Shown here: one piece after another, positions 12,643 through 15,481 of the stretch
Layout: the number at the start of each line of letters is the position of its first letter
Position numbering within the stretch: the first letter of the stretch is position 1
Source of the DNA: a virus
IMG/VR virus record: IMGVR_UViG_3300027739_000080
Location: 1 to 21,130 of that record
Length of the DNA stretch: 21,130 nucleotides
Strand: one strand, 5' to 3'
Program-made: the position numbers and the translations under genes
The notes under the pieces: model-generated
What the model was told of the DNA's origin: nothing
The model's database searches: none
What the model saw: only the letters and a program-made list of their open reading frames with translations

Positions 12643-14637
12643 TCAGAATGGTAATGGGTCCTTTTTATCAGTGGGAGTAATGTCAAAATCATCTCCCCGG
12701 TCAACCTCATATCTCTCCTTAACAGTTACCGGTTGCTCCTTACTCTTTTTTACATCTTCCTTCTCTTCCTTCTCGGTGTACTCTGTAAATGTTCCACCTT
12801 TATTGAAATCCATCTTTAACTTAACCCTGTCCTCACACCCAAGTTCCTCAAACCGGATCTTCTCTGTGCGAATAATTGTTGGGGCCTTGCTGTCCACAAC
12901 ATACTTGTCATCTTCATCTGTGGTATCGGTTATCTGGTCCTTTGGTTTCATCTTTAGCTTATTTCGATGCACCAGTATTCCAATATCAGCTTTCTCCTTC
13001 CATGCAGAGGATCCTTTGATGTCATAAAGAGATGGCATCTTATAATTCATGTTCGATTGCATGTCAATCTTTCTGGGGTGAACTATGATAATGCCATGTA
13101 CATTATATGTATCGTTGAAATTAATAAGGTAGTCCAGTTGTTGTGAGATGAAGGTTGTCTCGGTCATCCATTTCGGCTGCTCATGCTCGATTTTATTCCA
13201 GGCATCAATCACATAGCCGAAGATGTCCTCAGTCTTTTTAAGGTGTATCAGATACTCCAGAATAGAATTGAGGGTATTGATTTGATTGACCTGTATCTTG
13301 CCGTTGAATGTCTCAAAGTTGTTCCTGTCCGGAGACACAACGAAGAAATGCTTGGCCATGAAAGTAATTGTTTTATTCCGCTGCTCTTCTGTCATGGAGT
13401 TTGTGGTACCTTCTTCAAATCTCTGTCCTGCCAATACTTCCGCCAGCTTTGCAAATTCCCTTGATACAGGTCTGTTCTCTGGTGTAAACAACGCCCACTT
13501 AATGTTCTTGTTGTGACGCACAAACTGAGCCAGATACCACCGGATGAAAACCGACTTGCCTGATCCTGGCACTCCTGTCACAAAGGTTATATGCTTTGGC
13601 TTTAATGTGAATAACCTATCAATATAAGGGTATCCAATGCCCAGACCAGGCGTAAAACCGTGCTTGGCCAGAGTATTCATCTCTTCAATGACATCATAGG
13701 GCCTTATGATACCCTTGACAGCGAAGGATGATAGGTTGTTGTAACATTCATCTACTCCGGCTTTACCAAGTGCCGGCAGTCCTTTCTTGACATCTCCGTT
13801 ATAAACCTCGTTGATATCCTTATATCCTGTCGGATAATTGATGTACTTACATCTCACCTTGCCAAAGAAATGAACCAGGTGTTCTCTCAGGAACTTACCG
13901 GCCTCATCATTATCGGTTGAAAATATCAACTGGTCCACGTTGTCCGGGTGGAAGAAGCTCTGTACATACGGATCCTCCGCATACGCAAACTCTTCTTTGA
14001 AGTTCTTGGCCTTTGGGGATGGTGCGCCCTGCGGAACGCTTACGGCATTGTTATATCCACATTGTTTCCATGTGAGCATGTCAATCTCTCCCTCCGTGAT
14101 AATGACAGTCCTATTCTTCTGTATCTCGTCATCACTCTCAAAACTGATGGATTGCATACCCCAGAATATAGGCTTTGACCCGTATTCTTTCTTCATCTGC
14201 CACCACTTCAATCCGGCCTCTTCTGAATTATACCTAACATTGAGGTATTTGACATTCACCAGTGTCATATTAATGAATGAAGGAAATCCAAGAACCGGAT
14301 TGCCTTTTACAGTATATTCAAATACTTTCTCTCTGATAGCTATCGCGGGATCTATGCCTCGCCTCTTAAAATAATCGCGGACCTCAGTCGTAAATATGGA
14401 TGCCGGTTGCTTGGGCATACGACTATGCTCAACAACTTCCTTATACTTATCCTGTATATCAAGGTTTCCGCTAAAATTGCAATGATGGCACTTGTACCAC
14501 CGGTTCCCCGGCTCGTCATTGACAGTCAGGCACGGTACATTCTTGTGCTTCTTTCTGCTCTCATTGCATTTCGGACAAATAGTGTAGTATCGGGATGCCC
14601 CCGACTTGGTATGGATCCCCAGCTCCTCAAACGTCAT
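12643..14637 (-). CDS. Bifunctional primase-helicase (Twinkle/T7 gp4-like)
   Basis: A 664-residue replication protein in three parts. A zinc-binding N-terminus has C21-x2-C24 and C50-x2-C53. The Toprim primase-type domain has TEGEID (181-186), TDNDEAG (241-247) and KDINE (273-277). The RecA-fold helicase has the Walker A GVPGSGKS (355-362), TPEN (385-388), a Walker B-like FGYVIDAWN (473-481), HGIIIVHPRK (514-523) and a C-terminal KGSSAWKEKAD motif (541-551). This order is that of the T7 gp4/Twinkle group, which unwinds DNA 5' to 3' and often primes. Whether this member primes cannot be told from sequence alone. About 90 charged residues at the C-terminus may bind a polymerase. The start overlaps the preceding gene by four bases. 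Confidence 0.9.
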   Translation of the reverse strand: MTFEELGIHTKSGASRYYTICPKCNESRKKHKNVPCLTVNDEPGNRWYKCHHCNFSGNLDIQDKYKEVVEHSRMPKQPASIFTTEVRDYFKRRGIDPAIAIREKVFEYTVKGNPVLGFPSFINMTLVNVKYLNVRYNSEEAGLKWWQMKKEYGSKPIFWGMQSISFESDDEIQKNRTVIITEGEIDMLTWKQCGYNNAVSVPQGAPSPKAKNFKEEFAYAEDPYVQSFFHPDNVDQLIFSTDNDEAGKFLREHLVHFFGKVRCKYINYPTGYKDINEVYNGDVKKGLPALGKAGVDECYNNLSSFAVKGIIRPYDVIEEMNTLAKHGFTPGLGIGYPYIDRLFTLKPKHITFVTGVPGSGKSVFIRWYLAQFVRHNKNIKWALFTPENRPVSREFAKLAEVLAGQRFEEGTTNSMTEEQRNKTITFMAKHFFVVSPDRNNFETFNGKIQVNQINTLNSILEYLIHLKKTEDIFGYVIDAWNKIEHEQPKWMTETTFISQQLDYLINFNDTYNVHGIIIVHPRKIDMQSNMNYKMPSLYDIKGSSAWKEKADIGILVHRNKLKMKPKDQITDTTDEDDKYVVDSKAPTIIRTEKIRFEELGCEDRVKLKMDFNKGGTFTEYTEKEEKEDVKKSKEQPVTVKERYEVDRGDDFDITPTDKKDPLPF

Positions 14638-14975
14638 GCCTTCAAGAATTTCTCGCTCTTCTCGTTTCGTAAGATAAACTTGGGACCTGTACCTTCCGAA
14701 TCCTGGAATGGATACACGGTATCAAACTCAAAGTAGATCTTACCTTCAAGAATGGAAGGTCTGGTCTTGTTTGTGATAGTAGATACCGGAAGTCCGGACA
14801 GGTTTGCGAACTGATTGACGGTAAAAACATTGTATCTCATCATGCTTTTAACCGCCAGTAATGGGAGGTTTCTCTTTATTGCCAGCTTCTCTACCAGCGC
14901 AGGATCAGTCTTTACGAACTTGCACTCTACGCTCTGGGCAACAATAACATTAACATCGTTTTCTGCTTCTGCCAT
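14634..14975 (-). CDS. Putative HTH protein, first gene of the replication operon
   Basis: A 113-residue protein that is the first gene after the promoter at 14998-15028. Residues 52-73 (TVNQFANLSGLPVSTITNKT) look like a helix-turn-helix, with the typical Ala-x-x-x-Gly turn. The N-terminal 50 residues are helical with a basic patch (KLAIKRNLPLL). The C-terminal part is beta-like and ends in basic residues. Its ATG gives a leader of about 15 bases from the predicted transcription start. It overlaps primase-helicase by four bases. A replication-initiation or autoregulatory role is plausible for a first-in-operon HTH protein but is not shown. Confidence 0.62.
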   Translation of the reverse strand: MAEAENDVNVIVAQSVECKFVKTDPALVEKLAIKRNLPLLAVKSMMRYNVFTVNQFANLSGLPVSTITNKTRPSILEGKIYFEFDTVYPFQDSEGTGPKFILRNEKSEKFLKA

Positions 14976-14997: not shown

Positions 14998-15028
14998 CAA
15001 ATATAGCAAACAAATTTAATAAAACAAT
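14998..15028 (-). promoter_or_regulatory. Bacteroides-type promoter for the replication operon
   Basis: On the - strand the box TATATTTG (15005-14998) fits the Bacteroides primary sigma factor -7 consensus TAnnTTTG exactly. ATTG (15028-15025) lies 19 bases upstream and fits the -33 element TTTG with one mismatch. Transcription would begin about 15 bases before the ATG at 14975. The tract 14976-15031 is AT-rich, has no GC-rich hairpin and sits just after the exported-protein stop, so it is a natural operon boundary. Confidence 0.72.
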
Positions 15029-15031
15029 ATT

Positions 15032-15481
15032 TCAATTAAAATTAAACGCCACTCCTGTCAGAAGAAAGAAATTTTTAGTAGAGATGTTGTACCCACCACC
15101 GAAAGCAATGTATTGCCACAACTGTACGGTGCCGGCCAGAGAGATTTCTGCCGGAGACACCTCGCCTATGTCTGTGCCAAATAACACTATTGCGCTAAAG
15201 GCATAGTCCATATATGGCTCTCCGTTCTGTTCGGTAAAATGGCCTATGGTAAGACCTGTTCCCAAAGAAGATAGGGGGGTAACGAGAACCTGATCTGAGA
15301 AAGTGAACTGCATTGCTGATACCTGTACTACTGGCCGGAACAGCCATTGGACGTTTACCCCCCTATCGTTTGTTGGTATCTTATCCGGAACCCTTCCGAA
15401 GAAGTTGTTCCATTTGTCCTGGGCATTTAAGGATGTTGCAATAACTCCTAATAATGCCATAATTAGTAATGTCTTTTTCAT
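15032..15481 (-). CDS. Secreted, beta-rich outer-membrane-like protein
   Basis: A 149-residue protein with a clear N-terminal signal peptide: a Lys-Lys start, a hydrophobic core and an Asn-Ala end at residue 20, before QDKWNN (likely cleavage after A20). There is no lipobox Cys, so it is not a lipoprotein. The mature part alternates hydrophobic and polar residues (QVLVTPLSSLGTGLTIGHF, FLLTGVAFNFN) and ends in an aromatic-rich strand like outer-membrane barrels. About 129 residues would be small for a full barrel. The ATG overlaps the polyvalent-protein stop as ATGA, so translation is coupled to it. No family is recognised; a phage-driven envelope change such as superinfection exclusion is one idea. 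Confidence 0.65.
   Translation of the reverse strand: MKKTLLIMALLGVIATSLNAQDKWNNFFGRVPDKIPTNDRGVNVQWLFRPVVQVSAMQFTFSDQVLVTPLSSLGTGLTIGHFTEQNGEPYMDYAFSAIVLFGTDIGEVSPAEISLAGTVQLWQYIAFGGGYNISTKNFFLLTGVAFNFN

Follow-up and report, generated by a model that had tools for sequence, protein, structure and literature searches.

The window, by which we mean the whole stretch of 21,130 nucleotides analysed here, is a 21-kb phage fragment in which the gene of a small exported protein lies between a giant gene and a replication module. The features of this junction, all on the minus strand, are the following.

12643..14637, minus strand: primase/helicase gene (TOPRIM and DnaB-like), at the start of the replication module
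14634..14975, minus strand: conserved gene of 113 amino acids, HTH-like by weak similarity, downstream of the promoter and marking the same junction in relatives
14998..15027, minus strand: Bacteroidota-type promoter, TTG-N19-TATATTTG, ahead of the downstream replication genes
15032..15481, minus strand: gene of the exported protein (149 amino acids, 149 codons), from the open reading frame, the family alignment and HMM matches
15035..15058, minus strand: C-terminal TGVAFNFN, which as read from the sequence resembles the outer-membrane beta-signal (G-x-x-aromatic-x-aromatic)
15131..15280, minus strand: core, residues 68-117, of a predicted beta-meander, near-identical to that of G003 despite third-position changes
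15422..15481, minus strand: predicted signal peptide, residues 1-20, with cleavage before Q21, from the sequence, its hydrophobic segment and the family pattern
15478..15481, minus strand: ATGA overlap of the polyvalent stop with the start of the exported gene, shared by the window, G003 and L007
15478..21130, minus strand: C-terminal part of a giant polyvalent gene that runs off the window, with a Strawberry-notch helicase, a zincin-like HELGH motif and LPD38

Two longer records, G001 (46.9 kb) and G002 (76.3 kb), are 100% identical to the window over the genes compared. G002 is complete, since it carries an exact 99-bp terminal repeat, for a genome of about 76.2 kb. The source is an uncultured virus of Bacteroidota, and the phage group to which it belongs is podovirus-like.

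The exported proteins of the window and of G003 are 88% identical, with a dN of 0.069 and a dS of 1.10; from residue 37 to residue 117 they differ by one substitution only, while third codon positions differ. Because residues are kept while third positions change, we read the gene as real coding sequence under purifying selection, strong in the core. A chance open reading frame is rejected on account of this selection and conservation.

The N-terminus consists of MKKTLLIMALLGVIATSLNA followed by QDKW, the signal ending in NAQ, and reads as a typical Bacteroidota signal for Sec export and signal peptidase I, with no lipobox. The protein of the window contains no cysteine, and its only hydrophobic stretch, as checked on the G003 orthologue, is the signal peptide. 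All six members of the family described below start with MKK and appear to have a signal peptide, with a Q at the predicted cleavage site or right behind it. The signal peptide also led us to reject the protein as a component of the virion.

The sequence-only reading had described a signal peptide and a barrel-like mature part. The export signal holds as a reading of the sequence; the barrel is a candidate fold. AlphaFold2, run with three sequences, predicts an all-beta meander with a mean pLDDT of 38.8 for the full length and of 37.7 for the mature protein only, the latter run giving eight strands. Foldseek finds no match at E <= 0.001 for these low-confidence models, and a test of beta-alternation against shuffled sequences is not significant. 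On such models a beta-barrel fold is plausible. The best hint of an outer-membrane protein in the sequence is a C-terminus with a glycine and then an aromatic residue: five of the six family members have this arrangement at or adjoining the end (GVAFNFN, GASINF, GGGITF and GINLKYNF are found, and the L007 member fits loosely, with GIKIDVFNNIQ). A C-terminal beta-signal with a terminal aromatic, as expected of an outer-membrane beta-barrel, is present in the family.

On the other side of the ATGA overlap, the giant gene encodes Helicase_C_4 (Strawberry notch; E 1.3e-20) and LPD38 (E 1.6e-19), and is in this respect like the large polyvalent LPD38 proteins (PMC5512222), which join both in one very long protein; the main text of that article makes no mention of signal peptides or of the outer membrane. 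At full length the product reaches 4,836 amino acids in G001 (31461-45971) and 5,078 in G003 (17169-32405). No large gene of the virion operon comes after the giant gene in either record, and giant genes for structural proteins hold the syntenic position in Cellulophaga and Flavobacterium phages.

The overlap that had been reported between the polyvalent gene and the exported gene was found in three lineages, the window, G003 and L007, and suggests that the two are translationally coupled. The independent promoter said to follow the exported gene is also well supported: the pattern TTG-N18-24-TAnnTTTG has a single intergenic match in the complete 76-kb genome G002, and the core TTGCTATATTTGT is conserved in all three lineages. 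Homing-endonuclease-like insertions occur near the HTH gene and the virion genes of relatives (L007:5213-5806, L046:8985-9632, G739:26084-26929).

Coupling in three lineages makes it natural to ask whether the exported and the polyvalent proteins act together in DNA entry, the giant product being ejected like gp16 and the exported protein preparing the envelope. The giant gene follows genes of about 230 and 550 amino acids, an arrangement shared with Cellulophaga phages, in which the products of the syntenic genes carry structural annotations; and a relative of the LPD38 region in Pelagibacter phage Lederberg adjoins an internal virion protein gene. However, a signal peptide directs the product to the envelope of the cell that makes it rather than into the virion, and most other LPD38 or giant genes have no exported gene after them. 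The exported gene follows the LPD38 end only in the window with G001 and G002, in G003 and in L007. After the next related giant gene, that of L049 (C-terminus 61% identical), comes a lysis cassette instead, and no exported gene of this kind stands after the giant or LPD38 gene of L049, G006, Vibrio 1.232, HTVC010P, Lederberg, BA3, Pondi or phiARM81mr. What comes after these other genes is a lysis gene, a tail fibre, a holin-like gene or no gene at all, and in the other LPD38 phages checked no clear signal peptide was found on the gene after LPD38. The exported gene is no constant neighbour of LPD38 polyvalent genes. The idea of a two-gene cassette must consequently be given up: the pairing is limited to three close lineages, and distant homologues of the exported gene, in G739, G740 and the phage of G007, lie far from the giant gene. 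These locations largely refute the DNA-entry reading, which we regard as very improbable.

Within the three lineages, the exported gene does not diverge as its neighbours do. The L007 allele, which is placed in the family mainly by its position, N-terminus and length, direct pairwise similarity being weak, is about 25% identical to that of the window, with a dN of 0.99, whereas the neighbouring genes are 59-76% identical, with dN values of 0.17-0.34 (giant gene 0.17, primase 0.18). Between the window and G003, the exported gene has the lowest dN of the four genes compared. Since the gene has diverged far more than its neighbours in one comparison and less in the other, its divergence is not clock-like, which suggests the replacement of alleles in a fixed slot.

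The distant homologues came from a survey of genes with signal peptides in related genomes, which had been located by way of the primase; the survey led to G740 and G739. Over 107 amino acids, the G740 homologue is 38% identical to the G003 protein (E 8e-18) and 35% to that of the window (E 5e-16); the G739 homologue aligns to the G740 member with an E-value of 7e-6. With the profile of the other five, a sixth member came to light in MAG G007, on a phage contig of 72.7 kb (E 4.4e-14, about 24% identity). The three phages are 66-73 kb long, and the family HMM matches seven records: G001, G002, G003, G004, G739, G740 and the G007 phage.

In all three phages with a distant homologue, the exported gene is the last of a lysis cassette, and the same virion gene comes after it (MTLWDIYNLV, MSLWEMWDLV and MTLYEMFSLI). 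Here and below, "XhlA-like", "holin-like" and "spanin-like" are labels given by length, membrane segments and position, none being above a family cut-off. The cassettes read as follows.

G740: XhlA-like, phage lysozyme (Pfam 5.5e-10), 241-amino-acid protein, 63-amino-acid holin-like, exported
G739: order similar to that of G740, endolysin unassigned, the exported gene overlapping the holin-like gene by ATGA
G007 phage: XhlA-like, GH108 endolysin (6.9e-23), holin-like, C1 protease (9.2e-20), exported

Papain-like C1 proteases or look-alikes recur in the lysis cassettes of the group (L039:1202-2014; L124:2001-2828, E 9.2e-20), as a C1-protease gene of 241-275 amino acids or one similarly placed; G739 and G740 each have a gene of 241 amino acids.

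With an endolysin and a C1-like protease among the lysis neighbours of relatives, the exported protein could be a secreted periplasmic beta-protein, for instance an inhibitor or regulator of one of these enzymes; the low confidence of the barrel model and the non-significant alternation leave room for this. However, the window phage has no adjoining C1 gene, and a charge of 12%, hairpins rich in glycine and aromatics, and aromatic C-termini are more in keeping with an outer-membrane protein. We find the periplasmic reading improbable.

This phage group carries its lysis genes at either of two places: locus A lies ahead of the MTLWDIY virion gene, and locus B is flanked by the giant gene and the HTH-primase module. 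Locus B of the window lineage holds the exported gene alone, 30 kb from the holin and the endolysin, a distance that counts against a role in lysis. The corresponding locus of L049 is fuller.

L049, locus B: XhlA-like, DUF5675 protein (likely endolysin), lipoprotein, holin-like, spanin-like

Endolysin, holin and spanin-like genes are likewise found at locus B of L061 and L072, and probably of L062/L063, the spanin-like gene being last or next to last; a spanin-like gene with a transmembrane segment and a coiled coil also precedes the HTH-primase genes of L039, L052, L060 and L065. At locus A, G002 has XhlA-like, caspase, holin-like, DUF5675, lipoprotein and Sec-exported 374-amino-acid genes, and no gene of the exported family. 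This complete genome has holin-like, endolysin-like and XhlA-like genes, and lacks the spanin-like gene of family A10. That family is present in G743, G744 and G006, and the exported family in G001, G002, G003, G004, G739, G740 and the G007 phage: no genome has both, and G741, Panino, phi38:1, phi19:3 and elemoF have neither. This lack of co-occurrence backs a replacement of the spanin, as weak evidence, resting on about seven tree-correlated genomes in a group where some phages have neither family.

Spanins (lambda Rz/Rz1, the T1 u-spanin gp11; PMC6139136) are late envelope proteins of very diverse sequence, encoded at the end of the lysis module, and the exported protein resembles them in these respects, its slot being held in sister phages by a spanin-like transmembrane/coiled-coil gene. 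The periplasmic domain of T1 gp11 is also predicted to be mainly beta (PMC6139136). Cassette membership with a holin and an endolysin is observed in G739, G740 and the G007 phage, and not in the window lineage. Unlike spanins, the exported protein has neither a lipobox cysteine nor an inner-membrane transmembrane domain, and no sequence similarity links the two. With no lipobox and no inner-membrane anchor, it cannot be a classical spanin; it may be an unlinked outer-membrane component that works toward the same end, or a protector of the progeny at release.

We therefore put forward, tentatively and at slightly less than even confidence, that this is a late, Sec-exported protein of the lysis module, acting at the outer membrane during lysis or release and possibly replacing the spanin. 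Judging by its position, the ATGA overlap and the separate promoter downstream, the gene would be translated late, at the distal end of the virion operon. Sec would export its product and signal peptidase I would process it, as the protein sequence suggests, and the beta-meander of the low-confidence model would fold into the outer membrane by way of a BAM-type C-terminus. After holin and endolysin have breached the inner membrane and the wall, the protein would weaken the outer membrane, doing the job of the spanin-like gene of sister phages, as slot and non-overlapping distribution suggest. In the window lineage, the exported gene stands apart from the other genes of the lysis cassette, alone at locus B behind the giant gene. 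A more specific version, in which a small beta-barrel processed by signal peptidase I, probably inserted by BAM and having no lipid or inner-membrane anchor, replaces spanins, its alleles being swapped between the two lysis loci, is unlikely; if true, it would be a previously undescribed way of breaking the outer membrane by Bacteroidota phages.

About 13% (about one in eight) of the phage genomes surveyed by Kongari et al. have no recognisable spanin (PMC6139136), so that unknown factors of outer-membrane lysis are to be expected, and the exported family could fill this gap. An exported beta-protein family in the last lysis slot, with no spanin-like gene, is a testable candidate for the missing outer-membrane step of Bacteroidota phages.

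A late, exported and probably outer-membrane protein could also serve in superinfection exclusion or in shielding from debris, by masking or altering a receptor so that progeny are spared or secondary phages excluded. Genes that interact with the host typically have their alleles replaced within a fixed slot, and the contrast between the L007 allele (dN 0.99, against 0.17-0.34 for its neighbours) and the window-G003 pair (0.069) fits such a role. Small exported phage proteins of the outer membrane, T5 Llp and Cor, act in superinfection exclusion; however, both are lipoproteins, whereas the exported protein has no lipobox, has no sequence link to them and is located in a lysis module. Pfam, PHROGs and PADLOC give no match, and exclusion does not predict membership in the lysis cassettes of three lineages. 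The setting among lysis genes speaks in the first place for a step at the outer membrane during lysis or release, and we judge exclusion or shielding rather unlikely. Even as an exclusion factor, the family, with six members and none in Pfam or PHROGs, would represent an interaction with the host envelope not yet described.

Accessory genes of the moron type also settle beside lysis genes, which counts against the lysis reading. The exported gene might be such a late passenger, one that modifies the host surface and takes part in neither lysis nor the exclusion of phages: it occurs at two different genomic places, is absent from many relatives and has no fixed partner. By position it is comparable to lambda Lom and Bor; Lom, of the Ail/Lom beta-barrel type, is a small exported beta-protein whose gene, like ours, is downstream of the last virion gene. 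Unlike Lom, the exported gene has a lytic context, and its product matches none of the Pfam families of outer-membrane beta-barrels. Moreover, we see no promoter of its own, the late operon being shared through ATGA overlaps; its core is under strong purifying selection; and in the parts that we read no genes for lysogeny stood out, which makes a benefit to the host less likely. A passenger role seems to us hardly probable.

Returning to the family itself, the exported protein has no match in Pfam, PHROGs, NCBIfam, PADLOC or PDB sequences, in agreement with the initial remark that it belongs to no named family. A tblastn search of 50,697 phage genomes with the members of the window, L007, G740, G739 and the G007 phage returned nothing credible. 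HMM searches of four overlapping samples of Bacteroidota genomes (395, 395, 395 and 393) gave signal-peptide or marginal matches only, except for the G007 phage contig; as its member is about 24% identical, it provides one of these searches with a positive control. Homologues in host genomes far from phage genes, which would have spoken against a phage family, were not found in these samples: the one copy, in MAG G007, is phage-borne. We take one marginal host match for a chance or generic similarity: L137, an outer-membrane-like protein of 166 amino acids (E 3.7e-4) from one of the 393 genomes. The family is probably larger than its six listed members, because the IMG/VR scans reach close relatives only.

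Several other genes of these loci deserve mention. L047:1215-1814 and L067:6807-7461, the latter seemingly split by a frameshift, occupy the slot before the HTH-primase genes. Their products are anchored in the inner membrane and carry a DTF-type linker and, at the C-terminus, a short beta-meander. They are a possible bridge between the spanin-like and the exported beta-proteins; a profile comparison of the exported family with these two proteins is not significant (P 0.029 and 0.38). The Sec-exported protein of 374 amino acids that adjoins the lysis genes of G002 (30077-31201) is repetitive and beta-helix-like, and has homologues in G003 and L065 and no family. Finally, the caspase-like gene in the lysis cassette of G002 (32438-33193, or L022:12438-13193 on the minus strand; Peptidase_C14, E 2.5e-24) has a counterpart at G003:916-1698, caspase-like by its resemblance to the G002 copy; the placement is unusual, and possibly linked to the timing of lysis or to host cell death.
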